The notes under the pieces: model-generated
Databases searched by the model: none
What the model saw: only the letters and a program-made list of their open reading frames with translations
Told to the model about the DNA's origin: nothing
In this document: one piece after another, positions 41,188-57,976 of the stretch
How the letters are laid out: every line of letters starts with the position of its first letter
Position numbering within the stretch: position 1 is the stretch's first letter
Translations under genes and position numbers: made by a program
Virus record (IMG/VR): IMGVR_UViG_3300007712_000002
Coordinates: 28,504-92,503 of that record
Source: a virus
Length of the DNA stretch: 64,000 nucleotides
Reading direction: 5' to 3' (one strand)

Positions 41188-41218
41188 TTGACATGTCCAC
41201 AGGTTTCCTGTATAAATA
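41188..41218 (+). promoter_or_regulatory. dual early/late promoter of the tmRNA gene
   Basis: TTGACA 41188-41193, 17-base spacer, TATAAA 41211-41216, which is also the start of a perfect late box TATAAATA (41211-41218). The RNA gene could thus be read both early and late. Confidence 0.65.
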
Positions 41219-41225
41219 AAACTGT

Positions 41226-41521
41226 ATTGATGACGTTCATCATGATGTAGGACGGACCGGGGTTCAATTCCCCGCACCTCCACCAAATCAGACTGGTGCC
41301 TGACACCATCAAGGTAGTGCTTGTAAATAACTGGATGATGATTACTATGGGGGTGATATGGGATCGACGTATGCTGATAGGTGAAAAGAGATGCCCGGAT
41401 GTAAGCTCGGTTAACGCGAACGAATCTATAACTGCAAACACAAACGCAGCGCCAGAAATGGCAATCGCAGCCTAAGGGCAGCACGAGGTATGGGCTCCAC
41501 CTTGTTACCAAACGGGCCCAT
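41226..41521 (+). ncRNA. ssrA: circularly permuted two-piece tmRNA
   Basis: The acceptor piece comes first: T arm CGGGG-TTCAATT-CCCCG (41258-41274), then CACCTCC (41275-41281) and encoded ACCA ending at 41285. After a 63-base spacer that can fold (TGGTG/CACCA) the coding piece begins GGGGGTGATATGGGATCGACG at 41349; GGGGGTG pairs with CACCTCC, with the G3-U70 pair that marks alanine acceptors. A 19-residue tag frame follows (41416-41475). ATGGGCTC/GGGCCCAT closes the 3' end near 41521. This is the architecture of alphaproteobacterial tmRNA; ends are approximate. Confidence 0.93.
41416..41475 (+). CDS. tmRNA proteolysis tag reading frame
   Basis: Resume codon GCG; tag ANESITANTNAAPEMAIAA then TAA. 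It starts AN(E/D), as in most tags, and ends in small residues (AIAA) like the LAA/VAA ends read by ClpXP. It is longer than the common 10-14 residues. Confidence 0.85.
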   Translation, partial: ANESITANTNAAPEMAIAA

Positions 41522-41544
41522 TTTCTTGATTGGATGATAACAAT

Positions 41545-42906
41545 ATGCCATTTAAAGAGGAGTGTGGTGTTTTTGGGGTCTACAATAGCCCAGATGCAGC
41601 AGCACTCACCGTCTTAGGACTACACGCCCTGCAACACAGAGGTCAAGAGGCGGCTGGTATTATTAGCTATGATGGCGATTTTCATATTGAAAAGACCCAG
41701 GGACTAGTAGGCGACCATTTCAACCGCAAGTCAGTGGTAGAAAAGTTGACAGGCAATGCGGCCATCGGACATACAAGATATTCGACATCGGGTGAATATA
41801 ATTCTCTAAACAATGTTCAACCCATGTTTGCTGAATTTGATCGCGGTGGGTTTGCCATTGCACACAATGGCAACTTGACCAATCAGAAAAAATTGCGTCG
41901 TGAACTAATCGAGAGCGGAGCCCTATTTTATAGTTCAAGCGACACTGAAATCTTTATTCACTTGATGGCTCGTTCACAAGCAAAAACTGTGGTAGAACGT
42001 TTTCAAGACGCCTTGAACCAAACACAAGGTGCATTTTCTATTGTGGCTGTTACTACAAAAAAGATGATTGGTGCTAGAGATCCAAATGGATTTCGTCCAT
42101 TGTCTCTGGGTTACCACAATGGTGCTTATTTCCTATCAAGTGAAACTTGCGCATTTGATATTACTGGTGCTGATTTTGTTCGTGACGTCGAACCTGGTGA
42201 GATTGTGGTTATAACAGAAGACGGTGTGGAAAGTATCAAGTATGCAGATCGTGCCAGACATTTTTGTATTTTTGAGTTTGTTTACTTTAGCCGACCTGAC
42301 AGTGTGATTGACGACAAAAACGTTCACGAAGTAAGAAAGCAGATTGGCCGTGAATTGGCTTCAGAGCACATGGTTGATGCAGACTTGGTGGTTCCGGTCC
42401 CTGACAGCGGCATCCCCGCAGCAATGGGCTATTCTCAACAATCCAAAATTCCATATGACTTGGGCATTACAAGAAATCACTATGTAGGGCGAACATTCAT
42501 TGAGCCTGAGGATCATGTTCGTCACCTGGGCGTTAAGATGAAACACAACGCAAACGCAAGTGTTCTCCGTGATCAGCGTGTTGCTCTGATAGATGACAGT
42601 ATTGTGAGAGGCACAACCAGCCGCAAGCTTGTTGACATGATTCGTAATGCTGGTGCCCGTGAAATACATCTGCTCATAGCAAGTCCGCCGACAATAAACA
42701 GTTGTTATTATGGAGTTGATACACCAACAAAAACAGAACTCATTGCTAATAATATGAGTGTTGATGAAATGTGTGAATACATCGGAGCAGATTCACTAAA
42801 TTTTTTATCGATTCAAGGAATGCACCGCGCCGTGAAAATGAACGGCATGTGTGATGCTTGCTTTTCCAACAACTATCCAATACAGATTTTTGACAATGAA
42901 AACTAA
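41545..42906 (+). CDS. purF: amidophosphoribosyltransferase PurF
   Basis: 453 residues from ATG 41545. EECGVFGVYN holds the N-terminal nucleophile Cys after a six-residue propeptide; HRGQEAAGI, GHTRYSTSGEYNSLNNVQP and HNGNLTN are the glutaminase motifs; VALIDDSIVRGTTSRKLV is the PRPP-binding loop. It makes phosphoribosylamine, the first step of purine synthesis. Length agrees with the Bacillus type, but the iron-sulfur cysteines are not all present. Cyanophages also carry purine genes. Confidence 0.95.
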   Translation: MPFKEECGVFGVYNSPDAAALTVLGLHALQHRGQEAAGIISYDGDFHIEKTQGLVGDHFNRKSVVEKLTGNAAIGHTRYSTSGEYNSLNNVQPMFAEFDRGGFAIAHNGNLTNQKKLRRELIESGALFYSSSDTEIFIHLMARSQAKTVVERFQDALNQTQGAFSIVAVTTKKMIGARDPNGFRPLSLGYHNGAYFLSSETCAFDITGADFVRDVEPGEIVVITEDGVESIKYADRARHFCIFEFVYFSRPDSVIDDKNVHEVRKQIGRELASEHMVDADLVVPVPDSGIPAAMGYSQQSKIPYDLGITRNHYVGRTFIEPEDHVRHLGVKMKHNANASVLRDQRVALIDDSIVRGTTSRKLVDMIRNAGAREIHLLIASPPTINSCYYGVDTPTKTELIANNMSVDEMCEYIGADSLNFLSIQGMHRAVKMNGMCDACFSNNYPIQIFDNEN

Positions 42907-47185: not shown

Positions 47186-47698
47186 ATGTATACCCAAGGA
47201 ACAGTAGCTAACTTCAGCCCAGAACAGGTTGAAGAAATCGTGGACTTACTCTCCACACTTGACACAGACACAAAAATTTATTTCGGTTGTGACTCTGTCC
47301 GAACACGTAGAAAAGGTCGTTGGTATGCGACATTCGCGGCAGTTTTTATCGTTCACATGAACGGAAAAAACGGTTGTCGTCTGTTCAGCCACATGAGCAC
47401 AGAACCAGACTACGATGTGAAGATCGACCGTCCAAAGATGCGCATGATGAAGGAAGTCCAAAAGGTGTGTGAACTATATACGCAAATGATTCCATTCATT
47501 GATGAGTTTGACATTGAGGTCCACCTCGACATCAACACTGATCCAAAGCACGGATCAAACTGCGCCGCAACCGAAGCCGCAGGCTACGTTCTTGGCGTAA
47601 CAGGTCTCCCGGAAGAGCAGATCAAGCTCAAGCCGGAGAGCTTTGCTGCTAGCTTTGGTGCAGACGCCGCTGCACACGGTCGCTTCGAAAGAAGTTGA
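47186..47698 (+). CDS. YkuK-like (DUF458) RNase H-fold protein
   Basis: 170 residues. YFGCDSVRTRRKGRWYATFAAV is an RNase H-type first strand with Asp; EVHLDINTDPKHGSN and AAGYVLGVTGL, then KPESFAASFGADAAA, match the DUF458/YkuK family of predicted RNase H-like nucleases. Substrate unknown. Confidence 0.8.
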   Translation: MYTQGTVANFSPEQVEEIVDLLSTLDTDTKIYFGCDSVRTRRKGRWYATFAAVFIVHMNGKNGCRLFSHMSTEPDYDVKIDRPKMRMMKEVQKVCELYTQMIPFIDEFDIEVHLDINTDPKHGSNCAATEAAGYVLGVTGLPEEQIKLKPESFAASFGADAAAHGRFERS

Positions 47699-47727
47699 CC
47701 TATAGCAGGACAGATATAAAAGAGATG

Positions 47728-47747
47728 CGGGCAGGTTTACCTGCCCG
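47728..47747 (+). other. perfect hairpin
   Basis: CGGGCAGGT (47728-47736) pairs perfectly with ACCTGCCCG (47739-47747) on a two-base loop, between two genes; no U-run. May attenuate or stabilise the downstream message. Confidence 0.4.
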
Positions 47748-47793
47748 TATCAACCGAATAAAAGAACGTCAACAACTTAAACGCGAGGAGCCG

Positions 47794-48297
47794 ATGAGCT
47801 ACACTCTAAGGTTTTCAACCCGTAAATTTGATGGATTGTTTGGAACGGCTTATCCCCGTCTTAAAAAAATTCCTAACCATAAACGCGAAAGCATCATTTC
47901 ATTATACCTTAGTCACATAAGCAATAATTCCAAGGTGACTGTGGATTACAATGAAATTACACCATTTACCAGTGCTTATAGCATCATTATTGATACTGGA
48001 GGCAGGCAAGGATATAATGCTGCTCTTGAAATCGAACAAATTTGTCGTGGCTTTAAACGATTGAACTTTCTTAGTCCGCCACGGTGGTGGAATCGATTTG
48101 CTCCATTCCGTCATCCGAGCGACACTTTCATGATCAACGATCTTGAAATGGGTCCTGTCATTGAATGGCTACTAGAGAACTGCAAAACCAGTGACTACCA
48201 GATTTTTACTAAGTTTGAAAAGGACATCAGTATTGGCTTCCGCGACGGTGAAAATGCTGCAATGTTTAAGTTGACATTTGGCGAAGAAGAGATCTAA
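47794..48297 (+). CDS. protein of unknown function
   Basis: 167 residues from ATG 47794, 6 bases after GAGGAG; the frame is open back to 47695. Alpha/beta; no family recognised. Last protein gene before the RNase P RNA. Confidence 0.55.
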   Translation: MSYTLRFSTRKFDGLFGTAYPRLKKIPNHKRESIISLYLSHISNNSKVTVDYNEITPFTSAYSIIIDTGGRQGYNAALEIEQICRGFKRLNFLSPPRWWNRFAPFRHPSDTFMINDLEMGPVIEWLLENCKTSDYQIFTKFEKDISIGFRDGENAAMFKLTFGEEEI

Positions 48298-48304
48298 TAA
48301 CACA

Positions 48305-48519
48305 TGCTCACTGAGGCGGCCGCACTGACAACCTAGTTGGAGTGAGGACAAGCTCAGGACAGGCCCAGAACCTGTGGGAGGCTATCGCCGCTCGTACCAC
48401 TGATACCGCAAGGGGGCTTGCAACGGAAACAGGTCGAGGTAAGTTCTATCCTGTGAGACCGGGTTCCGGCCAATAGACGAATGGTCGCCCTTGACAGAAT
48501 CCTGGCTATTATGTGAGTT
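48305..48519 (+). ncRNA. rnpB: RNase P RNA, minimised
   Basis: About 215 bases against ~400 in bacteria. P1: GCTCAC (48306-48311) with GTGAGT (48513-48518). P2: GGCGGCC (48315-48321) with GGTCGCC (48483-48489). P4: AGCTCAGGA (48351-48359) with TCCTGGCT (48500-48507), leaving U48354 bulged exactly where P4 has its universal bulged U. Conserved strings GAGGACAAG (CR-I), GAGGTAAG and GTGAGACC, and AGACGAATGG...GACAGAATCCTGGCT (CR-IV/V) are all in order. It would cut 5' leaders of the tRNAs that follow, with the host RnpA protein. Confidence 0.92.
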
Positions 48520-48521
48520 AG

Positions 48522-48528
48522 ATAAATA
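48522..48528 (+). promoter_or_regulatory. T4-type late promoter
   Basis: ATAAATA directly after the RNase P RNA, followed by GGAG and an ATG at 48551. Confidence 0.5.
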
Positions 48529-48662: not shown

Positions 48663-48683
48663 CCAGCACAACAGGAGAACGAA

Positions 48684-48818
48684 ATGACTTTTGAAGGATA
48701 TAGAGATGGAATTGTTCGTGGCGATGGCGGCACTGCTACTGTGTGCCCATGCGGTGAAAACTGTCAGTGCAGCCCATGCACTTGCGGTGGCAATTCCTGT
48801 GAAGGTTGGGGCGGCTAG
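48684..48818 (+). CDS. metallothionein-like peptide
   Basis: 44 residues, AGGAG 7 bases before the ATG. The second half has seven Cys in CPCGENCQCSPCTCGGNSC, the C-x-C and C-x2-C spacing of metallothioneins. It should bind zinc, copper or cadmium. It has its own early and late promoters and a terminator, so it is a dedicated unit. Phage metallothioneins are little known. Confidence 0.75.
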   Translation: MTFEGYRDGIVRGDGGTATVCPCGENCQCSPCTCGGNSCEGWGG

Positions 48819-48843
48819 ACAATAGCTCAACCTTAAAGGATAC

Positions 48844-48868
48844 AAGCCCCGCCTAGTGTGGGGCTTTA
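48844..48868 (+). terminator. rho-independent terminator
   Basis: AAGCCCC (48844-48850) pairs with GGGGCTT (48860-48866), followed by TATC. Confidence 0.75.
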
Positions 48869-48881
48869 TCATTTGAATTAT

Positions 48882-48963
48882 GTTGCGGGGCCCGGACGGG
48901 AAGGGGCCGGATTGCAAATCCGAGGCACGAAAGTAGCGAGTTCGACTCTCGCCCGCAACTCCA
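48882..48963 (+). tRNA. tRNA-Cys (GCA)
   Basis: Acceptor GTTGCGG/CCGCAAC, anticodon loop TTGCAAA, T loop TTCGACT, encoded TCCA. The variable region is longer than usual. First tRNA of the cluster. Confidence 0.85.
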
Positions 48964-48969
48964 AAAAAT

Positions 48970-49043
48970 GTGCTCGTGGCGGAAAGGCGACGCGCCGGAC
49001 TGCAACTCCGGTCATGCAGGTTCGAGTCCTGCCGAGCACTCCA
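48970..49043 (+). tRNA. tRNA-Cys (GCA)
   Basis: Acceptor GTGCTCG/CGAGCAC, loop CTGCAAC between CCGGA and TCCGG, T arm CAGG-TTCGAGT-CCTG, encoded TCCA. Second Cys tRNA in a row. Confidence 0.9.
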
Positions 49044-49165
49044 ATATATCCTATTACTATGCGGTTGTCCTCGTGGGGACCCCTTAAAACGAGAGTAAAG
49101 CTGAGCCTCAGCCGGTAGTCGCAATATAGGACAGTGTCATTAGACGTGAGATGGCACACCAACGA

Positions 49166-49194
49166 TTGACAATATTGTGTTCACATGTTAAATT
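49166..49194 (+). promoter_or_regulatory. sigma70-type promoter, 6 bases from the ATG
   Basis: TTGACA 49166-49171, 17-base spacer, TAAATT 49189-49194, ATG at 49201: probable leaderless start. Confidence 0.65.
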
Positions 49195-49200
49195 GAAAAT

Positions 49201-49509
49201 ATGAGCTATTTTCGTGATTTAAAAGTCTACAAATTGTTCCCCGAACTCAGGGCTACAATTAGACAAACATACATTGCAAAGTTGGCTGGGTTGTTGACTT
49301 TGCTTTTGTTTTCGCCACTCATAGCGATTGGTGTCATATCCATTGGTCTTGTCCATCTATTTGATTTGGTTGGGCAATACTCACTCTGGCCAGCACACAA
49401 GATAACCAACTGGCTTCATGACTATCAGCGTGATCAGATACGCTCAGCCCATTCTGTCGTCCCCATTGACAAAATCCAAGAGAGATTGGGAGATCAAGAT
49501 GACGACTAA
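49201..49509 (+). CDS. small membrane protein
   Basis: 102 residues; one or two hydrophobic helices between residues 28 and 60 (LAGLLTLLLFSPLIAIGVIS). Leaderless start. Overlaps the next gene by 11 bases. Confidence 0.6.
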   Translation: MSYFRDLKVYKLFPELRATIRQTYIAKLAGLLTLLLFSPLIAIGVISIGLVHLFDLVGQYSLWPAHKITNWLHDYQRDQIRSAHSVVPIDKIQERLGDQDDD

Positions 49510-50638
49510 CATCAAATACTTTGACCGGTATTATGTTGGTCAACGGAACCAGGATACTGCCAGTGGCAAACCGTTGGCTTTTGCTGTTCCTGACGGTGAC
49601 GATGCCGCAGCAAAAAAACGCAAGGCAACAGTTGATGCCTGGGTCGCAGGATATTGGTCAGCACGAGACACTCGCGGTCGCCTCCGCAAAGACCTCAAAG
49701 AGATGGGCGAGGTTTACGATAATAAACCCATGACAGGTTTCCGCCTCACTGACTGGAGTGACCGTTACATCACTGACAACAAGGTAGTTCGTGTGCTTGA
49801 CCCAAGAGGATTCGAGCTTGAGATCTACATTCCCAACCTCATGGACATCATCCTTAACTCGGAAGTTGACCACGGCGAAATCAAGGATGAGCTGGTATGG
49901 CTGCGCGAAGGCAGCAACAATCGTCTGGTGCGCACATCAGATCCTGCTTTTGCTGAGGCTAAACAAAATATGGTTCGGGCTGCAAAGAAGAAAGCTGCAC
50001 CCAAGAAAAGTCACGAAGTTGGAGATATCATTTCCAACACCTGGGGCACATTCCTCTACATGGGACTCATGGACGTAGAGTTCGTTGTGCCTCGTGGCAA
50101 GCGCGTGGTTGACGACGAGATGACTCGTCAGTTCGGCACGCGCCGAGTTGGTGGTTTCTTTGGCTTTCCAGGTAACGGACCCATTCGTGAAGAAGTTTAC
50201 CAGACCTACTATCGAATCGACGATGACCGCCTTGAAAGCGTGAGCATTGGCCGCCGCCATGTTTACCAAGATGTTAATAGAGGTTGGAATGGGCATGTGG
50301 CAAGGGATACCATCACGTTCCGCAAGAGCAAGATGGCGACGCAACAAGTAGTGAGCTCTAATAACCTGCTACCTCCTGTAGGTGAGGAAAGTTATTATCA
50401 CGTTGACTATGAAGTGTTCATGTATTACGACGAGGATGGCCGGCTTTACACACAGAAAGAGCATTATGATCTGGAAGAAGATCTTAACAAGAACATACAG
50501 CGTCCGAATGAGCACAAATATCTTGAAGGCATACGCCAATGGAAGACCTGTGTCGTTCGGGTCAACGATGGACCACTTGAAACTGATCCAGTAAAAGGTC
50601 GCTTCCGTGAAGAACTGATTAGGGGTCAATATCATTGA
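49499..50638 (+). CDS. protein of unknown function
   Basis: 379 residues from ATG 49499, with GGGAG 7 bases upstream. Basic linker near residues 155-175 (RAAKKKAAPKKS) divides two alpha/beta parts; the second is rich in Tyr and charged residues. Its position with small early genes suggests host interaction. No family recognised. Confidence 0.6.
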   Translation: MTTNIKYFDRYYVGQRNQDTASGKPLAFAVPDGDDAAAKKRKATVDAWVAGYWSARDTRGRLRKDLKEMGEVYDNKPMTGFRLTDWSDRYITDNKVVRVLDPRGFELEIYIPNLMDIILNSEVDHGEIKDELVWLREGSNNRLVRTSDPAFAEAKQNMVRAAKKKAAPKKSHEVGDIISNTWGTFLYMGLMDVEFVVPRGKRVVDDEMTRQFGTRRVGGFFGFPGNGPIREEVYQTYYRIDDDRLESVSIGRRHVYQDVNRGWNGHVARDTITFRKSKMATQQVVSSNNLLPPVGEESYYHVDYEVFMYYDEDGRLYTQKEHYDLEEDLNKNIQRPNEHKYLEGIRQWKTCVVRVNDGPLETDPVKGRFREELIRGQYH

Positions 50639-50871
50639 AGATCGACCTTCACGGATACACCATCCATGAAGCATGGAAGACTTTCAATACTGCGATTGAT
50701 CAGGCTTATTGGGCGGGCCGTCGCACTGTCGTGGTCGTGACAGGGCAAGGGGCTATGATGCAAGAGTTTGAGACCTGGGCCCGTAACCACACCAGAGTGC
50801 GCGAAGTCACTCAACACCAACACAATCCTGGAAGCTGGTCAGTCAAACTGAAAAAGTTCAAAAAAAGTTGA
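50635..50871 (+). CDS. Smr-domain protein
   Basis: 78 residues, TTG start overlapping the preceding stop (TTGA). KIDLHGYTIHEAWKTFNTAI and VVVVTGQGAMM carry the two Smr signatures (DLHG, TGxG). Smr domains nick nucleic acids; in MutS2/SmrB they cleave mRNA in collided ribosomes. A free Smr domain beside a tmRNA-bearing genome could link to ribosome rescue; that is inference. Confidence 0.82.
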   Translation: MKIDLHGYTIHEAWKTFNTAIDQAYWAGRRTVVVVTGQGAMMQEFETWARNHTRVREVTQHQHNPGSWSVKLKKFKKS

Positions 50872-50879
50872 AAAAGTTC

Positions 50880-50908
50880 TTGACCTTTTGGTTTTGATAC
50901 ACTATATA
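50880..50908 (+). promoter_or_regulatory. sigma70-type promoter without protein gene
   Basis: TTGACC 50880-50885, 17-base spacer, TATATA 50903-50908. The next 300 bases hold no convincing frame. Confidence 0.5.
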
Positions 50909-51120
50909 TGAATGGTAACGACGAAGGATTGCTGTTGTTCCTACCGAGGCGCTAACGGTCCAGACCCAAAAGGTCTCTAAGGATGCCGCCCGCCCAAACA
51001 AGTTTCGGTTAACAACAGACCGAATTACAATACTACACTGTTCGATTATGATAACAAAATTGGTAATGCGACGCCTTGGCAGCTGGGCTTTATTCAGCGG
51101 CCCCGAAAAAAGATCGAAAA
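50909..51120 (+). ncRNA. possible structured RNA of unknown type
   Basis: Region behind the promoter at 50880 without a gene. Local hairpins: AGACC-CAAAA-GGTCT near 50962-50976, and a GC-rich segment around 51075-51105. Not a tRNA, RNase P or tmRNA by motif. It may be a leader or an RNA gene. Confidence 0.3.
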
Positions 51121-51126
51121 AAGTTG

Positions 51127-51155
51127 TTGACAACGTGCTTTTTTCCGTGTAGTGT
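51127..51155 (+). promoter_or_regulatory. sigma70-type promoter
   Basis: TTGACA 51127-51132, 17-base spacer, TAGTGT 51150-51155. A late box ATAAATA follows at 51168-51174. Confidence 0.55.
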
Positions 51156-51224
51156 GGTTTTACAGAGATAAATAACCGTAACAACGACAGTGAGTCAGCG
51201 TTACACATACTAGAAGAGAAACTG

Positions 51225-51377
51225 ATGCAACTATTTGTTCAACATATCACCAAGCTGGCGAGCCTCGCCGCCTCCGTGATGTCCAATACATGGGCGTTGA
51301 ATTATGGTGGCCAGATTAGCTCAGTCCTCGGAGGCAAAGATCGCTTTGAACCTACCAAGGAGGGTGAACGAGACTAG
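51225..51377 (+). CDS. 50-residue peptide
   Basis: ATG 8 bases after AGAAGAG. MQLFVQHITKLASLAASVM then a glycine-rich, charged end (GGKDRFEPTKEGERD). Has early and late promoters before it and a terminator after it, so it is a stand-alone unit. Confidence 0.55.
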   Translation: MQLFVQHITKLASLAASVMSNTWALNYGGQISSVLGGKDRFEPTKEGERD

Positions 51378-51406
51378 AAGTGTAGAATACGCACACTTAC
51401 TCGACG

Positions 51407-51437
51407 CCCTCCAAGCAGAAGCTTAGGAGGGTTTTTT
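51407..51437 (+). terminator. rho-independent terminator
   Basis: CCCTCCAAGC pairs with GCTT(A)GGAGGG around AGAA, followed by six T residues. Confidence 0.9.
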
Positions 51438-51504
51438 AATGGACTAACTAGGATAACATTTTTCAAAGACTTCAAAAAAAGATAGAAATTTTTGAAAAAA
51501 GTTG

Positions 51505-51533
51505 TTGACATTGCTAACCAACCAAAGTATATT
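51505..51533 (+). promoter_or_regulatory. sigma70-type promoter at the head of the tRNA region
   Basis: TTGACA 51505-51510, 17-base spacer, TATATT 51528-51533. No long protein frame follows; it probably drives the tRNA precursor. Confidence 0.65.
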
Positions 51534-51539
51534 GGTTTA

Positions 51540-51845
51540 GTAAAGACAAAAAGTAGAATGCGGAACGCGACTGCACCACTACTATAAAAAAGGGAATGGG
51601 CGTGTTTGGGGATGGAGCCGAAAGGTGAAAAAACCAGACTAGGGGCCAACAACCTGAGCGTGTTGGTCGCGGGCTACCCAAATGACCCTGGGCTCATAGG
51701 ACCGCGGAGGTGATCAAGAAATTGGTTGCTGATAAACATGGGGCACGAAGTTGAGTTACTCATCTTTCAAGAAAGAAGAGTGATGCAGATTGTATTTTCG
51801 CCAGCGTCCGACAACGTAGTCGACGACGTTAAAATAACTGAGCTG
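51540..51845 (+). other. gene-free transcribed stretch
   Basis: About 300 bases without a credible protein or tRNA. One clear hairpin, CCAACAAC...GTGTTGG near 51645-51670; other GC-rich pairs are possible. Function unknown. Confidence 0.4.
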
Positions 51846-51849
51846 GTGT

Positions 51850-51912
51850 ATAGGTTATGATCACGCTGACTGCAAATTAGAACAGGTTCGAATCCTGTCA
51901 GGGCGGGAGCCT
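51850..51912 (+). pseudogene. tRNA-like remnant with GCA loop
   Basis: CTGA-CTGCAAA-TTAG gives a Cys-type anticodon loop and ACAGG-TTCGAAT-CCTGT a good T arm, but no 5' acceptor strand pairs with CAGGGCG. Its 3' half (CAAATTAGAACAGGTTCGAA) is similar to that of the odd tRNA at 62575. Confidence 0.4.
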
Positions 51913-51985
51913 TGTAGTGTATGTGGAAGCACGGGTTGCACAAAGCAGTGATACTTAACACAGCACACTGGCGGTGAGCAAGTTA

Positions 51986-52159
51986 ATGGCTAGCGTAACA
52001 GCACCACCATTAATGCAATATCCCGCCGGAGGAGCAGAGGTTGGGCTCTGGCGCAAATACAATCAAACAGAATACGGTGCAGGACGGGTAGTAGGGCCAA
52101 CTGTAAAAAGGAAACCCCGAGTAGCAACATTGCGTAAAAACGGCTTGCATCGTAATTAA
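51986..52159 (+). CDS. possible 57-residue basic protein
   Basis: ATG at 51986 (GTG at 51974 in frame). Basic C-terminus (VVGPTVKRKPRVATLRKNG). Ribosome site weak; it lies in a region otherwise made of RNA genes. Confidence 0.3.
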   Translation: MASVTAPPLMQYPAGGAEVGLWRKYNQTEYGAGRVVGPTVKRKPRVATLRKNGLHRN

Positions 52160-52163
52160 TAAC

Positions 52164-52258
52164 GTGTTCTTTGCTCTGCACGGCTCCTCTAGGCGGGGAG
52201 AGCTGGCTGTTAACCAGTTTGTGAAAGGTTCGAATCCTTTGTGCAGAGCAAAGAACAC
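52164..52258 (+). tRNA. tRNA-Asn (GTT) inside an 18-bp closing stem
   Basis: Mature part 52175-52248: acceptor TCTGCAC/GTGCAGA, D stem CTCC/GGAG, loop CTGTTAA, T arm AAAGG-TTCGAAT-CCTTT. CCA is not encoded. The flanks continue the acceptor pairing: GTGTTCTTTGCTCTGCAC (52164-52181) is the exact complement of 52241-52258. Such a long duplex would hinder RNase P and suggests another maturation route. Confidence 0.8.
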
Positions 52259-52369
52259 TAGCTTGTTGTTACTCGAAAAGAGTAGGTATACTTGCACAAA
52301 GCCGCGAGGCAAAGCGGTGAGGCGGACAAGCAAGCAAGGACAATGCAAGCGGACCTTGCTAAAGAATTT

Positions 52370-52445
52370 GGTGCTATCGTATAATGGCTGATTATAACTC
52401 GTTGTCTGCGAGAGGATCGGGGTTCGATTCCCCGTAGCGCCGCCA
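52370..52445 (+). tRNA. tRNA-Asp (GTC)
   Basis: Acceptor GGTGCTA/TAGCGCC, loop TTGTCTG, T arm CGGGG-TTCGATT-CCCCG, encoded GCCA. Confidence 0.9.
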
Positions 52446-52566
52446 AAGTTTCCAGTCTTAGTTTGTGCGATCTCTCAGTTAAAAGCTGTCGCACAGTAAA
52501 GCAACGCCCAATATGGCTTGCTCCTAAGGTAGCTGGAAAGCCAATAGGTACTGATCTAGACCCAGG

Positions 52567-52602
52567 GTCAGTTAAATCGCAGGATGACGGACCTGTAGAG
52601 CC
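52567..52602 (+). repeat. conserved element before tRNA-Trp, copy 1
   Basis: GTCAGTTAAAT, then GCAGGATG, GGACC and GAGCC. A similar block sits at 53158-53190, in both cases 11-12 bases before a tRNA. Confidence 0.5.
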
Positions 52603-52614
52603 GGCTACATACAT

Positions 52615-52692
52615 AGGGGTGTGTTCTTAATTGGATATGATGCGGGTCTCCAAAACCTTGCGACGGGGGTTCGATTCCCTCCACCCTTGCCA
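52615..52692 (+). tRNA. tRNA-Trp (CCA)
   Basis: Acceptor AGGGGTG/CACCCTT, loop CTCCAAA, T loop TTCGATT, encoded GCCA. Anticodon stem has one mismatch. Confidence 0.85.
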
Positions 52693-52701
52693 AAATTTCA
52701 T

Positions 52702-52776
52702 ACAGCGCAGCTGGATAGCTTCCAGACAGCATATGGGCCTGATCAGCCTTAGTAGGTGCGAGTCCTACCCGCTGTA
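52702..52776 (+). tRNA. tRNA-Ile (GAT), no encoded CCA
   Basis: Loop CTGATCA, T arm GTAGG-TGCGAGT-CCTAC (T loop lacks the usual TTC), acceptor ACAGCG/CGCTGT. Pairing runs beyond the mature ends (TCATACAGCG with CGCTGTATGA). Confidence 0.65.
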
Positions 52777-52786
52777 TGATTCAAAA

Positions 52787-52869
52787 TTACTGCACTTCCT
52801 GGTCCCTAGGGGAGGCAAGTCCGGTTTAAATCCGGTGTAGCGGTGTAAGTCCGAAAGGTAGGGGCAGAA
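52787..52869 (+). tRNA. degenerate tRNA-Leu-like (TAA)
   Basis: CCGG-TTTAAAT-CCGG would carry a UAA anticodon; D-like arm CCCTAGGGGAGGC; no canonical T arm. Acceptor pairing CTGC...GCAG is imperfect. May be decayed. Confidence 0.3.
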
Positions 52870-52873
52870 TTCA

Positions 52874-52949
52874 TTCCCATTAGCTCAGTTGGTAGAGCAA
52901 GCGCCTGTTAAGCGAAAGGTCCCTGGTTCGAGCCCAGGATGGGGAGCCA
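52874..52949 (+). tRNA. tRNA-Asn (GTT)
   Basis: Acceptor TTCCCAT/ATGGGGA, classic D arm TAGCTCAGTTGGTAGAGC, loop CTGTTAA, T arm CCTGG-TTCGAGC-CCAGG, encoded GCCA. Confidence 0.92.
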
Positions 52950-53157
52950 ACGTGGTATCCTGTAGTCTACAAGACACCGCAGGACTAAGACGCCCGACGA
53001 AGGGTAGTGCCGGACACATATAGCAGTAACGTGGTGCGGTAGGTGCACACTGAGCCACGCGGAATGCTCGACGTTAGGGAGGTAGACCTCTAAAGGGTCC
53101 GCTGCGGCGACGTCGTTAAATTGAAGCCTCCTAGAAATCACGGTGCTGGCCGAAGGC
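52950..53157 (+). other. gene-free spacer with structured potential
   Basis: About 210 bases between tRNA-Asn and the repeat copy at 53158; several GC-rich inverted segments (for example GGTAGACCTC/GAGG) but no recognisable RNA. Confidence 0.3.
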
Positions 53158-53190
53158 GTCAGTTAAATGCGGAGGATGGTCCGGACAGCC
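53158..53190 (+). repeat. conserved element before tRNA-Arg, copy 2
   Basis: GTCAGTTAAAT, GGAGGATG, GTCCGGACAGCC; compare 52567-52602. It lies 11 bases before tRNA-Arg. Confidence 0.5.
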
Positions 53191-53201
53191 AATCACATAA
53201 T

Positions 53202-53277
53202 GCTCAGGTAGTGAAACTGGAGATAACGCGAGTCTACGAAACTCGAGATGAGGGTTCGAGTCCTTCCCTGAGCACCA
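53202..53277 (+). tRNA. tRNA-Arg (ACG)
   Basis: Acceptor GCTCAGG/CCTGAGC, loop CTACGAA between CGAGT and ACTCG, T loop TTCGAGT, encoded ACCA. A34 would need TadA to become inosine. Confidence 0.88.
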
Positions 53278-53280
53278 AAG

Positions 53281-53355
53281 ATTTGGTTGGTTGTAATCAC
53301 CCCTTGTGAGGGTGGCCCAGGAAACTGGTCAAAGAGGCAAACCTCCCAACCAAAT
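53281..53355 (+). ncRNA. 75-nt four-way-junction RNA of unknown type
   Basis: ATTTGGTTGG (53281-53290) pairs perfectly with CCAACCAAAT (53346-53355). Inside are three hairpins: CACCC/GGGTG, CCAG-GAAA-CTGG and GAGG-CAAA-CCTC. The size and cloverleaf layout are those of a tRNA, but two arms end in tetraloops and there is no anticodon or T loop. Confidence 0.55.
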
Positions 53356-53363
53356 ACTAATAT

Positions 53364-53394
53364 TAGCGCAGGTGAATAGCCGTAAGCCGCAAGA
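53364..53394 (+). repeat. 31-bp repeat, copy 1
   Basis: TAGCGCAGGTGAATAGCCG then TAAGCCGCAAGA; matches 54834-54864 at 29 of 31 bases. Confidence 0.75.
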
Positions 53395-53482
53395 GATATG
53401 CGCGTGTGTGGACAAATTGTGGTAAAGTCGCCTGGATTAGACCACTGCCCCGCGCACCAAGTTAAGTCGGACTTCGTAAATG

Positions 53483-53489
53483 ATAAATA
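53483..53489 (+). promoter_or_regulatory. T4-type late promoter
   Basis: ATAAATA 18 bases before the HNH endonuclease gene. Confidence 0.5.
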
Positions 53490-53507
53490 ATCAGAACAGA
53501 GTTCGAT

Positions 53508-54023
53508 ATGCAAATAATTGAAAAAACTTGTCCTAGTTGTAAGACAGAGTTTACACAGGAAATCAAAAAAGGTTACGGAAGAACATACTGTAGCCGTTCA
53601 TGTGCTAACAGAAGAACACATAGTGATGCTACTAAGCAAAAAATTGGTAGAACTGTAAAAAACACATGGAATGCCAAATCTGAAGAAGGTAAGAAAAAAG
53701 CACTAGATGCATTAAAGAAAGGCCAAGAAACACGGAGACAAAATTGGCTTAAATTCTTACAAGAATCCAATACCGAAGATTTAGCACACGAAAGTCGTAA
53801 ACGAAAAGTTTTTCTTGAACAAGATGAATCTTGCTTACAATGTGGTATTGCAGACTGGCAAGGACAACCTTTAACGTTTGAGCTTGATCATATCGACGGC
53901 GACAAGTTAAACAATACTAGAGAAAACTTGCGTGTATTATGTCCAAATTGCCATGCACAGACTGATACATGGAGAGGTAGAAAAAATACGCTCGTGAGTC
54001 CGAATGGTGAGGGCCTCAGCTGA
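53508..54023 (+). CDS. HNH endonuclease in the tRNA cluster
   Basis: 171 residues. N-terminal zinc finger (CPSCKTEF and CSRSC), a basic helical middle, and an HNH domain at residues 110-155: CLQC, ELDHIDGDKLNNTRENLRVL and CPNCH. Free-standing homing-type endonucleases of this kind spread into phage genomes. Its last 11 codons and stop are read from the 5' half of tRNA-Ile at 53990. Confidence 0.88.
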   Translation: MQIIEKTCPSCKTEFTQEIKKGYGRTYCSRSCANRRTHSDATKQKIGRTVKNTWNAKSEEGKKKALDALKKGQETRRQNWLKFLQESNTEDLAHESRKRKVFLEQDESCLQCGIADWQGQPLTFELDHIDGDKLNNTRENLRVLCPNCHAQTDTWRGRKNTLVSPNGEGLS

Positions 54024-54064
54024 TAACTGAGTGGTAGATTGTTCGATTCAATCCGCGAGCACCA
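53990..54064 (+). tRNA. tRNA-Ile (GAT)
   Basis: Acceptor GCTCGTG/CGCGAGC, loop CTGATAA between CTCAG and CTGAG, T arm GATTG-TTCGATT-CAATC, encoded ACCA. Overlaps the HNH gene by 34 bases. Confidence 0.9.
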
Positions 54065-54076
54065 ATTATTAATGTC

Positions 54077-54104
54077 GAAGGTTCGATTCTTCTCAGGACA
54101 ACCA
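54077..54104 (+). pseudogene. orphan 3' part of a tRNA
   Basis: GAAGG-TTCGATT-CTTCT T arm, CAGGACA acceptor strand and encoded ACCA, but no 5' half nearby (TGTCCTG is absent upstream). Confidence 0.6.
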
Positions 54105-54112
54105 AAGTTTAT

Positions 54113-54196
54113 GTCGGGGACAAGCACCGGGCGCTGATGAGGCTCATAACCTCATGCCATTTGGCAAAGTGGGTTCGATTCCCACCCCCGCTACCA
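54113..54196 (+). tRNA. tRNA-Met (CAT)
   Basis: Loop CTCATAA on the stem ATGAGG/CCTCAT, T arm GTGGG-TTCGATT-CCCAC, acceptor GTCGGGG/CCCCGCT with one mismatch, encoded ACCA. Variable region contains a mini hairpin GCC/GGC. Could also be Ile2 (CAU) if modified. Confidence 0.8.
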
Positions 54197-54376
54197 AGTT
54201 ATGGGTGAAATTATATCCTGTTACCAGGAAGTAGCCCACCAGAAGCGCCGGTCTCGCATAGTTGCGTGAAGGGGGAGTCATGACCCCTGGAAGAATGGAT
54301 AAAATGCGTGTTAGACGGTCATGACCCGTTTGTGACATACGCAGGGTGCAATAACCCCCGCCGGACTCCAAATTAT
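54197..54376 (+). other. spacer with CCA-ended hairpins and tRNA debris
   Basis: TGGG...CCCA followed by CCA closes a 40-base element with an inner CCTG-TTAC-CAGG hairpin (54199-54240). GTCATGACCC occurs twice (near 54277 and 54318). No complete tRNA can be built. Confidence 0.35.
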
Positions 54377-54464
54377 GAAGTGATGGGTAATTGGCCTGCC
54401 CATGCAGTGGATGCAGCCTCGACTCGCGTCGGGGTGGACGGTTCGACTCCGTCACGCTTCACCA
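54377..54464 (+). tRNA. class II tRNA, probably Ser (GGA)
   Basis: Acceptor GAAGTG/CGCTTC, D stem GGG/CCC, long variable arm CCTCGAC-TCGC-GTCGGGG, T arm GACGG-TTCGACT-CCGTC, encoded ACCA. The anticodon arm is compressed (TGCA-GTGGA-TGCA); GGA is the only Ser-like triplet. Confidence 0.55.
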
Positions 54465-54493
54465 GATTGACGCCTACCGCAGTGCGGTCACCT

Positions 54494-54541
54494 GTCCATT
54501 AGTGGCAGCGAGTGTCGTAGGTTCGATTCTTACAGTGGATA
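54494..54541 (+). pseudogene. 48-nt tRNA-like RNA lacking the anticodon arm
   Basis: Acceptor GTCCATT/AGTGGAT pairs at all seven positions and T arm GTAGG-TTCGATT-CTTAC is intact, but only 16 bases lie between them. No CCA encoded. A second orphan T arm (CAAGG-TTCGAAT-CC) follows at 54544. Confidence 0.5.
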
Positions 54542-54644
54542 AGCAAGGTTCGAATCCGTAGGGTGTCATATAGTTAGGCTTTGCCGAGCCTTACCTAGGA
54601 CGACAGGCCAAGTGCTTTGCGCGGCAACGCATCGCCAAGTGCCT

Positions 54645-54714
54645 GACATGTTAGCTCAGATGGAAGAGCAGCGCCGGAAGGCGTTGGTCATGGGTTCGAG
54701 TCCCATACATGTAT
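54645..54714 (+). tRNA. tRNA-like with GNRA tetraloop in place of the anticodon loop
   Basis: Acceptor ACATGT/ACATGT, classic D arm GCTC-AGATGGA-AGAGC, variable TGGTC, T arm ATGGG-TTCGAGT-CCCAT. The anticodon arm is GCGCC-GGAA-GGCGT, five perfect pairs on a GGAA tetraloop, so no anticodon exists. CCA not encoded. Confidence 0.6.
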
Positions 54715-54735
54715 TGCGGACTAGGTAGAATATTC

Positions 54736-54827
54736 GGGAGATGCAAGTAAGGCTAGGTGGTCCTGGCAGCAGGCTGTAAACCTGTTCCGGTAACGGCATG
54801 AGGTTCGAATCCGTCCTTCTCCCACCA
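54736..54827 (+). tRNA. tRNA-Tyr (GTA)
   Basis: Class II: loop CTGTAAA on GCAGG/CCTGT, variable arm TCCGGTAACGG, T loop TTCGAAT, acceptor GGGAGA/TCTCCC, encoded ACCA. T stem is imperfect. Confidence 0.82.
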
Positions 54828-54833
54828 AAATAC

Positions 54834-54864
54834 TAGCGCAGGTTAATAGCCGTAAGTCGCAAGA
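54834..54864 (+). repeat. 31-bp repeat, copy 2
   Basis: TAGCGCAGGTTAATAGCCG then TAAGTCGCAAGA; see 53364-53394. Located just before tRNA-Leu. Confidence 0.75.
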
Positions 54865-54868
54865 ATTT

Positions 54869-54946
54869 GCCCTTGCGATGTAAATGGAATAGCATACTAC
54901 CCTTAGAAGGTAGGTTTTGGAGGTTCGAATCCTCTCAGGGGCACCA
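54869..54946 (+). tRNA. tRNA-Leu (TAG) with a short variable loop
   Basis: Acceptor GCCCTTG/CAGGGGC, loop CTTAGAA on CTACC/GGTAG, T arm GGAGG-TTCGAAT-CCTCT, encoded ACCA. The variable loop has about five bases, whereas bacterial tRNA-Leu normally has a long arm. Confidence 0.78.
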
Positions 54947-54949
54947 AGA

Positions 54950-55031
54950 TAGCTAGTGGTGTAACATGAGAAGCTTTAACATTCTTGGTTCTGAGCCAGG
55001 AGATGCGGGTGCCAATCCCGCCTAGCAACCA
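54950..55031 (+). tRNA. tRNA-Gln (CTG)
   Basis: Loop TTCTGAG on CTTGG/CCAGG, T arm GCGGG-TGCCAAT-CCCGC, acceptor GCTAG/CTAGC, encoded ACCA. T loop lacks TTC. Confidence 0.7.
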
Positions 55032-55037
55032 CTTCAT

Positions 55038-55115
55038 TGGGGGACGTAGCAGACCGGTGATGCATCAGACTTTGAATCTGATTTTTGGGAGGTTCGATTC
55101 CTTCTCCCCCAGCCA
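55038..55115 (+). tRNA. tRNA-Gln (TTG)
   Basis: Acceptor TGGGGGA/TCCCCCA, loop CTTTGAA on TCAGA/TCTGA, T loop TTCGATT, encoded GCCA. Confidence 0.9.
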
Positions 55116-55142
55116 ACACATAAAACTGAATAGGAGGCTACA

Positions 55143-55442
55143 ATGGCCAAGATGTCAACAAAGGATGCCGCAACAGAGGCTCTAATAATTTGTGATAGAC
55201 TCGACGCTGTTGAGGATCTCAACAAAAATTCACGTGCTATCGTCGATTCTGTTCGCGCCATGATTGATACTAACCCTGACTCATATGCAAGGTTTGCTCT
55301 CAAGCATGTGCAAAGTGCAGATTATATGCATTATTTTTTCACTAACATGCATCCAGCAGACAAGGACAGCGTGTCCTACAAGACAATGCGCAATGATCCT
55401 ACTAGCAGGTTGTATCATATTGAATATTGCCCGTTGGTCTAA
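55143..55442 (+). CDS. small protein between tRNA genes
   Basis: 99 residues, AGGAGG 6 bases before the ATG. Helical (LIICDRLDAVEDLNKNSRAI). The last five codons and stop lie in the next tRNA, so maturation of that tRNA would cut the message. Function unknown. Confidence 0.6.
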   Translation: MAKMSTKDAATEALIICDRLDAVEDLNKNSRAIVDSVRAMIDTNPDSYARFALKHVQSADYMHYFFTNMHPADKDSVSYKTMRNDPTSRLYHIEYCPLV

Positions 55443-55503
55443 TTGGCAGGACGTCTGATTTTGGTTCAGAAGATTCCAGGTTCGAGCCCTGGACGGGCAT
55501 CCA
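55428..55503 (+). tRNA. tRNA-Gln (TTG)
   Basis: Acceptor TGCCCGT/ACGGGCA, loop TTTTGGT on TCTGA/TCAGA, T arm CCAGG-TTCGAGC-CCTGG, encoded TCCA. Confidence 0.88.
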
Positions 55504-55530
55504 AAGATTGGTTATTGACCAAGAGAACAT

Positions 55531-55609
55531 GGCCCCTCGGTCTAATTGGCATTTGGACGCTGGCCTCTCAAGCCAGAGGGTGCGGGTTCGACTCCCGCAG
55601 GGGCTACCA
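55531..55609 (+). tRNA. tRNA-Glu (CTC)
   Basis: Acceptor GGCCCCT/AGGGGCT, loop CTCTCAA on CTGGC/GCCAG, T arm GCGGG-TTCGACT-CCCGC, encoded ACCA. Confidence 0.9.
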
Positions 55610-55694
55610 ATACTAATGTTCGTCTGTGCTGGCCGACGCCTTCCTTGATTGGATCGCGCTTACAAGAATATCGGGAAAACAGACACTAATTCAT

Positions 55695-55773
55695 GGCCCC
55701 ACGGTCTAAGTGGTATATGGATGCCGGTCTTTCAAACCGGAGGGTGCGGGTTCGAACCCCGCTGGGGCTACCA
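55695..55773 (+). tRNA. tRNA-Glu (TTC)
   Basis: Acceptor GGCCCCA/TGGGGCT, loop CTTTCAA on CCGGT/ACCGG, T arm GCGGG-TTCGAAC-CCCGC, encoded ACCA. Close relative of the CTC isoacceptor at 55531. Confidence 0.92.
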
Positions 55774-55788
55774 ATTACACTGCATTAA

Positions 55789-55862
55789 CTGGGTATAATG
55801 AAGTGGTATCATGCCTGTCTCGGACACAGGCAGCGGAAGTTCGATTCTTCCTACCCAGACCA
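55789..55862 (+). tRNA. tRNA-Pro (CGG)
   Basis: Acceptor CTGGGTA/TACCCAG, loop CTCGGAC on CCTGT/ACAGG, T arm GGAAG-TTCGATT-CTTCC, encoded ACCA. Confidence 0.9.
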
Positions 55863-55871
55863 ATTCAAGAG

Positions 55872-55989
55872 ATGCGCAGACGAGCGTGAAGCTGTATTTA
55901 CCAGGTGCGGCGGGTAGCGTGGCGTCAGTAAAACTAACTCAGTGCTGGTAACACGAGTTGGGTGGTTGGTTCGAGTCCAACTGCGCAGT
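55872..55989 (+). tRNA. tRNA-Thr-like (GGT) with a ~45-nt insertion
   Basis: Outer stem TGCGCA/TGCGCA pairs, T arm GTTGG-TTCGAGT-CCAAC and loop CTGGTAA on GTG/CAC are present, but the D side is about 60 bases long. 118 bases in total and no CCA. Either an intron-like insertion or a decayed gene. It is the only Thr candidate with a full arm set. Confidence 0.5.
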
Positions 55990-55995
55990 TATTAA

Positions 55996-56072
55996 CGGCC
56001 GAAACTATGGTTGTAGTCGGGTATCTTGACATGATACCGTCAGTGTTGGGTTCGATCCCCATAGGCCGACCA
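55996..56072 (+). tRNA. tRNA-Val (GAC)
   Basis: Loop TTGACAT on GTATC/GATAC, T loop TTCGATC, acceptor CGGCC/GGCCG, encoded ACCA. Confidence 0.82.
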
Positions 56073-56081
56073 ATAATGTCA

Positions 56082-56110
56082 TTGACATCGTTGATTATCA
56101 ATGCTATGTT
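56082..56110 (+). promoter_or_regulatory. sigma70-type promoter inside the tRNA cluster
   Basis: TTGACA 56082-56087, 17-base spacer, TATGTT 56105-56110, before the gene at 56140. Confidence 0.6.
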
Positions 56111-56139
56111 GGTGTGCAACAGTAACAATGAGGTTAAAT

Positions 56140-56355
56140 ATGAAAATTGGAATCCTATCCATTGATGATGAAATTGTAATCGTCAAAGACGTCGGCAATG
56201 TTGATGCAGTAATTGAGAAATTAAAGTCCTATGGTCGCACTGTAAATAACGGTTGGGTTATGGACTTTGACAATCTGCCTGAGGGATTTGGAACTATCGA
56301 ACTACCTACATCCATTGCATGTTATGATGCAGAAGAAATGAATTTTGACTTTTAG
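56140..56355 (+). CDS. small acidic protein between tRNA genes
   Basis: 71 residues from ATG 56140 with GAGG upstream. Alpha/beta (KIGILSIDDEIVIVKDVGNV). Its stop codon overlaps the first base pair of tRNA-Val. Function unknown. Confidence 0.55.
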   Translation: MKIGILSIDDEIVIVKDVGNVDAVIEKLKSYGRTVNNGWVMDFDNLPEGFGTIELPTSIACYDAEEMNFDF

Positions 56356-56430
56356 GCGTAAACCATGGTGTGGTCGGGGATCTTTACACGGTCCTGTCGG
56401 TGGTTGAGTTCGATCCTCACGCGCCTACCA
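56354..56430 (+). tRNA. tRNA-Val (TAC)
   Basis: Acceptor AGGCGT/GCGCCT, loop TTTACAC on GGATC/GGTCC, T loop TTCGATC, encoded ACCA. Confidence 0.85.
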
Positions 56431-56440
56431 ATACACACAT

Positions 56441-56515
56441 CAGGGTGTGGGAAAGTGGTAATCCGTCTGGTTTGGAACCAGAAGATCGCGAGTTCGATCC
56501 TCGCCACCCTGACCA
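56441..56515 (+). tRNA. tRNA-Pro (TGG)
   Basis: Acceptor CAGGGTG/CACCCTG, loop TTTGGAA on TCTGG/CCAGA, T arm GCGAG-TTCGATC-CTCGC, encoded ACCA. Confidence 0.92.
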
Positions 56516-56524
56516 AAACAAAGG

Positions 56525-56553
56525 TTGACAAACCAAGTCATCCTGACTAAATC
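56525..56553 (+). promoter_or_regulatory. sigma70-type early promoter
   Basis: TTGACA 56525-56530 followed by AACCAAG, TAAATC 56548-56553, 17-base spacer. A late box ATAAATA lies at 56590-56596. Confidence 0.5.
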
Positions 56554-56589
56554 GTAATTTTAGTATTGGCAGGTAATAAGCTATTTTGC

Positions 56590-56596
56590 ATAAATA
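56590..56596 (+). promoter_or_regulatory. T4-type late promoter
   Basis: ATAAATA 24 bases before the gene at 56621. Confidence 0.6.
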
Positions 56597-56620
56597 AGTT
56601 GAAGCGAGAGAGAGATAACC

Positions 56621-57403: not shown

Positions 57404-57463
57404 TGAAAGCTTTGCTGATTTGGCGGATCGATATTACAACACTTAACTTAAAAGGAGACAGTT

Positions 57464-57493
57464 ATGAAACGCAAGGTGAACAAAAAGCCGTAA
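57464..57493 (+). CDS. Lys-rich nine-residue leader peptide before tRNA-Lys genes
   Basis: AAAAGGAG 6 bases before the ATG; the peptide is MKRKVNKKP, four Lys in nine residues using both AAA and AAG. Two bases after the stop a perfect hairpin begins (57496). Three tRNA-Lys genes follow. The layout is that of an attenuator leader. Confidence 0.4.
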   Translation: MKRKVNKKP

Positions 57494-57495
57494 CT

Positions 57496-57523
57496 GTCCT
57501 GGAAGCCCGCAACGGTCCAGGAC
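57496..57523 (+). promoter_or_regulatory. hairpin after the Lys-rich leader
   Basis: GTCCTGGA (57496-57503) pairs perfectly with TCCAGGAC (57516-57523). No U-run, so it may act by anti-pairing, RNA cleavage or rho. Confidence 0.5.
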
Positions 57524-57551
57524 GGAGTGACAGACGATGTTGCACTATCTT

Positions 57552-57629: not shown

Positions 57630-57648
57630 AAATACTTTGTATCTTCGT

Positions 57649-57931: not shown

Positions 57932-57947
57932 ACCTTGCTGTTGACAG

Positions 57948-57954: not shown

Positions 57955-57976
57955 AGATTACTGTAGGAGTAACACG

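Follow-up and report, generated by a model that had tools for sequence, protein, structure and literature searches.

The window analyzed in this study is a stretch of 64,000 nt comprising positions 28,504 to 92,503 of the IMG/VR record IMGVR_UViG_3300007712_000002. The whole record (92.5 kb) is that of a phage and carries genes for a terminase, DnaB and other helicases, a primase, tail fibres and a ribonucleotide reductase; genes for a B12-type ribonucleotide reductase, Hsp20, an AlgH-like DUF179 protein and an amidophosphoribosyltransferase-like protein were located in the window (Table 1). An RNase H-like gene and an ORF of no known family precede an RNA element of about 215 nt, which is followed by a small ORF for a cysteine-rich peptide, a terminator-like hairpin and a cluster of tRNA genes. 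The nearest tRNA is found about 360 nt downstream of the RNA, past the small ORF and the hairpin. ARAGORN detected about 33 plus-strand tRNAs in the window, fewer than the some forty counted in the initial annotation. The first tRNA of the cluster, Cys-like and with an enlarged variable region, was missed by ARAGORN and stayed under the Rfam cut-off in the window. The 3′-terminal CCA is encoded by 31 of the 33 window tRNAs, and a U at position −1 occurs in 24 of them (24/33 vs 28% background, P = 1e-7). A permuted, two-piece tmRNA is encoded ahead of the element.

RNase P RNA is the ribozyme that trims the 5′ ends of tRNAs, and RNase P is among the near-universal ribozymes of cells. The Rfam family RF00010 (RNaseP_bact_a) matched the element over the full model (positions 1-367) with 26.9 bits (E = 1.7e-6; 800 nt vs 4227 Rfam families) and was the sole one of the 4227 families to match the region at E up to 10; the other Rfam models of the RNase P clan, archaeal ones included, gave no match at E up to 10. 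Over the whole 92.5-kb record, the element was the single RF00010 match (E = 4.6e-8). The score lies far under the gathering cut-off of 100 bits, owing to the loss of the greater part of the specificity domain (S-domain), so that a default Rfam search omits this RNA. The covariance model R1, for which 15 related viral RNAs were used and the window was excluded, matched positions 48313-48509 with 137.1 bits (E = 2.6e-35 over 64 kb, R1 E-values being rough). The initial annotation had read the element as RNase P RNA and had proposed a significant covariance-model match as a check; with such matches obtained for both RF00010 and R1, its interpretation was largely right. A second R1 match in the window (27365-27419, 12 bits) was rejected as noise. 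Folding of the single sequence by minimum free energy (MFE) gave no signal (z = +1.2) because P4 and P6 are pseudoknots.

In the window RNA, the helices P1, P2, P3, P4, P5, P6, P15 and P16 can all be formed. P1, P2 and P4 had already been recognized in the initial annotation, and the bulged U of P4 sits exactly where it had been placed. The conserved strings named there are also present, but GAGGTAAG (48436-48443) is not a motif of the specificity domain and instead forms the 5′ side of P17/L17. GUUCU, which starts at the last base of this string, provides the 3′ strand for the P6 pseudoknot. This pairing of L17 with the strand after P5 is a feature of type A RNAs and is absent from type B. 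The suggested loss of much of the specificity domain turned out to be correct: a single 28-nt hairpin is left, holding GGC(UAUC)GCC and a GAG...CGUNNNUA-like internal loop, and P18 is gone as well as P8-P14, with no room for either. The GGU of L15 is the element that pairs with the 3′ CCA of tRNAs, and the CCA encoded by the window tRNAs is its partner. P3 of the window RNA exceeds that of the other minimal viral RNAs in length. Its J3/4 (GAGGACAAG) is longer than the GAGGAAG of its relatives, and for this reason the window RNA may be less active than they are. Since the full specificity domain (P7-P14 with CR-II and CR-III) and P18 of a typical member are missing, the RNA is classed as a type A core in a reduced variant.

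Table 1. Position of the RNA element, its predicted parts and neighboring features in the window.
Feature	Position	Strand	Basis or remark
B12-type ribonucleotide reductase gene	24198-26411		
Hsp20 gene	36674-37120		
AlgH-like DUF179 protein gene	39374-39922		
Permuted (two-piece) tmRNA of alphaproteobacterial (alpha) type, tag AAPEMAIAA	41184-41566 or 41193-41566	+	ARAGORN; Rfam tmRNA_permuted, 110 bits
Amidophosphoribosyltransferase-like gene	41530-42906		
RNase H-like gene, upstream of RNA	47186-47698		Used as query for relatives
ORF directly upstream of RNA, no known family	47695-48297	+	Syntenic in L002
Whole element: predicted RNase P RNA, type A-like with reduced S-domain	48304-48524	+	RF00010 full-model match; blind R1 match
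P1, GCUCAC/GUGAGU	48306-48311/48513-48518	+	Sequence; covaries in minimal viral RNAs
P2, GGCGGCC/GGUCGCC	48315-48321/48483-48489	+	Sequence; family covariation
P3 hairpin, CACU/AGUG with inner AAC/GUU	48323-48344	+	Sequence
J3/4 GAGGACA and P4 5′ strand AGCUCAGGA	48344-48359	+	P4 covariation in family
P4, AGC(U)CAGGA/UCCUGGCU	48351-48359/48500-48507	+	Bulged U exactly at 48354
P5, CAGGCCC/GGGCUUG	48360-48366/48414-48420	+	Family covariation
P6 pseudoknot, AGAAC/GUUCU	48367-48371/48443-48447 (3′ strand in L17)	+	Exact 5-bp complement
Residual specificity domain, single 28-nt hairpin GUGG/CCAC	48373-48400	+	Sequence
J5/15, GCAA	Region 48420-48468	+	Column invariant in family
P15, CGG/CCG	48424-48426/48466-48468	+	Family covariation
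P16, GGUC/GACC	48432-48435/48457-48460	+	Family covariation
P17, AGG/CCU	48437-48439/48450-48452	+	Sequence
L15 GGU, tRNA-CCA-binding	48462-48464, within CGGGU 48460-48464	+	CGGGU invariant in family
CR-V, AGACGAAUG	48475-48483	+	(Nearly) invariant throughout the viral RNAs
J2/4, ACAGAA	48494-48499, then P4 3′ strand UCCUGGCU	+	RF00010 match; covariation
Small cysteine-rich peptide ORF	48683-48819		Between RNA and first tRNA; L002 counterpart ~11289-11405
Terminator-like hairpin	48844-48866		
tRNA cluster following RNA, ~33 tRNAs	48881-63705	+	ARAGORN
Cys-like tRNA, first of cluster	~48881-48962	+	By eye; matches L002:11442-11524

For the analysis of covariation, 17 minimal viral RNAs including that of the window were aligned (alignment A1), and P1, P2, P3, P4, P5, P6, P7, P15, P16 and P17 were annotated, P4 and P6 as pseudoknots; the reference for the drawn structure was L117 and not the window. 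The window row is out of register at P1-P3 because of its longer P3, and these helices were assigned by hand. Standard pairs occupied 83.7% of the pair cells of the 17 RNAs, compared with 34-43% after sliding the partners by 1-3 columns. Two-sided changes were counted in 182 cells (66.9 ± 6.2 in shuffled alignments) and the covariation score was 0.515 (0.186 shuffled), values that were each reached in none of 500 shuffles. Among the individual helices of this set, P4 was paired in 100% of the sequences, with covariation and an invariant bulged U, followed by P15 (98.0%) and P16 (97.1%), both with covariation, P3 (92%), P5 (91.9%, two-sided changes in 5 of 6 pairs), P2 (84%, 5 of 6 pairs), P1 (70.6%, 9 of 9 pairs) and the residual S-domain hairpin (68%); in P6, two-sided changes affected all 5 pairs. 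Over 62 sequences, 480 of the 494 P4 pairs were standard. Compensatory changes in related viral RNAs, which the initial annotation had named as a further check, thus support P1, P2 and P4. The catalytic landmarks, namely P4 with its bulged U, J2/4 ACAGAA, CR-V, J5/15 GCAA and L15 CGGGU, are invariant or nearly so. Homology and a fold borne out by covariation are shown by these results, and the element is best explained as an RNase P RNA which the phage itself encodes, with a type A (bacterial) catalytic domain and a specificity domain reduced to one hairpin.

Scanning of IMG/VR with the degenerate pattern AGCCNNGNTTCTGTN{4,34}CATTCNTCT, representing the complement of CR-V, P2 and P4 3′, in combination with covariance models revealed RNase P RNAs in about 60 viral contigs, several of which are near-duplicates of one another. 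The pattern itself matched 69 viral contigs, and about 60 of these were real by RF00010 or R1. RF00010 confirmed an RNase P RNA in 37 of the 69 records (E < 1e-9, up to 255 bits), 16 of which exceeded the gathering cut-off, the larger viral homologues spanning 102-255 bits. R1 added about 25 minimal-form RNAs missed by RF00010 alone, about 12 of which had been used for building R1. The size of the viral RNAs forms a continuum from 150 to 326 nt (J3/4 to P4 3′) and includes near-full-size forms with S-domains. Comparison of the flanks showed few proteins common to the RNA-bearing contigs and the window phage, which indicates that the RNA is present in unrelated phages. No match in IMG/VR was obtained with strict DNA patterns derived from the window or from canonical rnpB, and RF00010 matches in G041 (11 bits) and G105 (15 bits) were not counted as full RNAs.

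By blastn of eight RNAs against 50,697 phage records, no phage homologue was detected. The weak matches H62 (BUCT-ZZ01), H63, H64, H65 (DSS3_MAL1) and H66 were rejected since they are located inside coding genes, and H61 since it is a bacterial contig; covariance-model searches of the records of BUCT-ZZ01, DSS3_MAL1 and H66 (MW202615) found no RNase P RNA. Fifteen named phage records, among them Atu_ph07, XacN1, G, PTm1, SCTP-2, CcrColossus and RaK2, were also searched; ten of these phages (149-498 kb) had been chosen for size or tRNA content or as earlier matches. None of the fifteen contained an RNase P RNA except MW495066. This record (MW495066.1, 'Microcystis phage MaAM05', wastewater) contains the bacterial-type genes ispG and purF as well as an RNase P RNA of full bacterial size at 115284-115683 (L218, 252 bits), and looks like a mislabelled bacterial fragment.

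Some of the viral loci showed further peculiarities. A 130-aa ORF (L169:6157-6549, minus strand) with an HNH-like CxxC...HH...CxxCH motif and no Pfam match at E 1e-4 splits the RNase P RNA of a 360-kb viral contig (G090, L169:6001-6650; L126 has the same region), as if the ribozyme gene had been invaded by a homing endonuclease. At L141:3538-3687, the 3′ half of an RNase P RNA alone is recognizable and an ORF reading into it replaces the 5′ half, which may represent an assembly chimera, a pseudogene or a split gene. A 300-kb viral contig (G114, L189) contains a 255-bit RNase P RNA near four tRNA-Pro and two tRNA-Met genes, along with RNA-ligase-like, ClpB-like and epimerase genes; both phage and bacterial origin are possible.

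A tRNA is present within 500 nt of the RNA in 48 of 61 RNA-bearing viral loci, often 5-20 nt away on one or both sides. All 865 tRNAs within 6 kb of the RNA in these 61 loci share its strand, a count that does not represent independent events, as it includes near-duplicate loci and long same-strand gene blocks. A permuted tmRNA was found a few kb from the RNase P RNA in three further loci (L179, L180, L184), and the precursor of permuted tmRNA also needs 5′ cleavage by RNase P. A profile search for rnpA (PF00825), which detected the gene in 10 of 14 control genomes, gave no match in the 92.5-kb record, in line with the initial annotation for the window, and none in 49 further viral records that carry the RNA and of which some reach 300-360 kb; all these records may be incomplete.

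Judged from the sequences, the element most likely acts as an active RNase P RNA which, together with host RnpA, matures phage tRNAs and possibly the two-piece tmRNA. The transcript of the minimal viral RNA would assemble with the host RnpA (C5), proposed as partner because no rnpA was detected in the phage record. The hybrid enzyme would then cleave the 5′ leaders off the long precursors of the phage's own tRNAs during infection, and the permuted tmRNA is perhaps a further substrate. Since other phages have the RNA inserted between the tRNAs of one array, it is probably co-transcribed with its tRNA substrates. The catalytic domain (C-domain) of E. coli RNase P RNA alone is active and depends on P6-like pairing and not on P18, while removal of the S-domain reduces the rate about 120-fold (PMC5839562), a cost that weighs against this reading. 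P18 is absent from the minimal viral RNA, in which P6, the active-site helices and L15 have been retained; this matches the pairing requirements and makes an active ribozyme the simplest reading. We infer that the RNA is expressed, is catalytically active with host RnpA and is of benefit to the phage, and that it may let the phage control the maturation of its tRNAs, as suggested in the initial annotation. It also appears probable that a widespread class of bacterial phages encodes its own RNase P RNA, which in some lineages, in parallel to archaeal type T, has shrunk to little more than the catalytic domain, and that this RNA recruits host RnpA into a hybrid enzyme dedicated to the phage tRNA arrays.

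The catalytic domain could also bind up host RnpA and thereby weaken host tRNA maturation, without processing any tRNA itself. This would agree with the missing phage rnpA and with the nearly complete loss of the S-domain, the reader of the tRNA T-stem/loop, but is unlikely since the bulged U, J2/4 and the L15 GGU hardly vary across very divergent viral RNAs, most viral contigs have the RNA inside or next to a tRNA array, and near-full-size viral forms with S-domains exist. A cis-acting or protein-free RNA, which processes its own long precursor in a cleavage that also frees its own end, could be imagined from the close tRNA spacing in many loci and from some phages in which the 5′ end of the adjacent tRNA is within about 20 nt of the 3′ end of the RNA. 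Protein-free RNase P RNA, however, needs high salt or Mg2+, and in the window even the nearest tRNA is separated from the RNA by an ORF and a hairpin, making such action quite unlikely.

With the RNase H-like gene as query, 80 viral loci were found as well as named phages, e.g. Rhodobacter phage RcXuper and Ruegeria phage RpAliso, which are tRNA-rich and 147-149 kb in size. In 50 records related by this gene, no RNase P RNA was detected by RF00010 (one 11-bit match apart) or R1. The nearest relative, L002, is syntenic with respect to the upstream gene, the small cysteine-rich peptide and the Cys tRNA and has no RNA in between, so that the RNA represents a gain or loss within the window lineage; as the closest relatives by the RNase H-like gene lack it, it is dispensable there. 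Together with the low RF00010 score, this distribution could suggest a decaying, non-functional relic of a captured host rnpB. However, helices that covary across dozens of divergent viral contigs, together with the invariance of catalytic positions, demonstrate long-term selection, and the window RNA forms all helices, so that a relic is very unlikely. The (near-)invariance of the catalytic positions over great divergence makes both a relic and mere sequestration of RnpA less likely.

Host contamination or an assembly artefact instead of a phage gene, for which one could cite mislabelled records such as MW495066 and a terminase profile matching 10 of 45 other records, is practically negligible in view of the phage genes and tens of tRNAs of the window record, the about 60 viral contigs carrying the RNA mostly inside tRNA arrays, and a strict minimal-form pattern that matches only 1 of 84,980 species genomes, on a phage-like contig. 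With the window record included, the terminase profile (PF03237) matches 11 of 46 records, a count which neither proves nor disproves phage origin for the others because the contigs are mostly fragments and many terminases escape a single profile. The sole match among the species genomes (L202, JALVDN010000438.1) is an 11.4-kb contig binned into a Flavobacteriales MAG. It shows a dense array of tRNAs within the 3.4 kb examined, and looks like a mis-binned phage contig.

If the viral RNAs are active RNase P RNAs operating with host RnpA, the 5′ maturation of tRNAs is a step open to viral takeover, and phages rich in tRNAs may not have to depend on the level of RNase P RNA in the host, e.g. if host RNAs are degraded. 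Beyond the initial annotation, it was found that the RNA is widespread, that P6 and the CCA-binding motif of L15 are kept, and that near-full-size forms exist in other viral contigs. The graded viral series, ranging from near-full-size to S-domain-less, is a natural deletion series of the enzyme. It shows what can be removed from a bacterial-type RNase P RNA whose substrates are a fixed set of tRNAs, and it fits the biochemical claim that P6 is important in an RNA without the S-domain, and P18 is not. Most viral RNase P RNAs will escape annotation pipelines because of the 100-bit Rfam cut-off. In the full text of 5.39 million open papers (preprints and subscription papers outside the scope), no report on phage-encoded RNase P was found. 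Phage RNase P is not mentioned in the main texts of the huge-phage paper (PMC7162821), jumbo-phage overviews (PMC7824862, PMC13282480) and a large jumbo-phage survey (PMC13037316), nor are phages in the main text of the rnpB-finder paper (PMC7191817).

In comparison with known systems, the viral RNA shares with bacterial type A RNAs (RF00010, E. coli M1 RNA) the order and geometry of P1-P2-P3-P4-P5-P6-P15-P16-P17 as well as the P4 bulged U, CR-V, J2/4 and the L15 GGU. It differs by its size of about 215 nt instead of about 370, the missing P18 and P8-P14, the one hairpin in place of the S-domain, a score under the family cut-off, and by being encoded by a virus, inside or close to an array of tRNAs. 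Theta ribozymes located next to phage tRNAs are likewise phage-encoded ribozymes linked to tRNA maturation (PMC10879173), but they are small, self-cleaving and HDV-like, act on tRNA 3′ ends and are not RNase P. RNase P RNAs of CPR bacteria have also lost helices such as P12-P14 and P18 and score below the Rfam threshold (PMC8172020); in contrast to these cellular genes, the viral RNAs have lost a larger part of the S-domain and retain the GGU that is absent from some CPR RNAs. The archaeal type T of Pyrobaculum and other Thermoproteaceae resembles the viral RNA in its degenerate S-domain, the proposed P6, the absence of P18 and the small size (PMC5839562, PMC7191817), whereas the viral RNA is bacterial-like, with the L15 GGU kept and a match to RF00010, and occurs in phages of bacteria. 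The reduction of the viral RNA would have taken place independently of that of archaeal type T.
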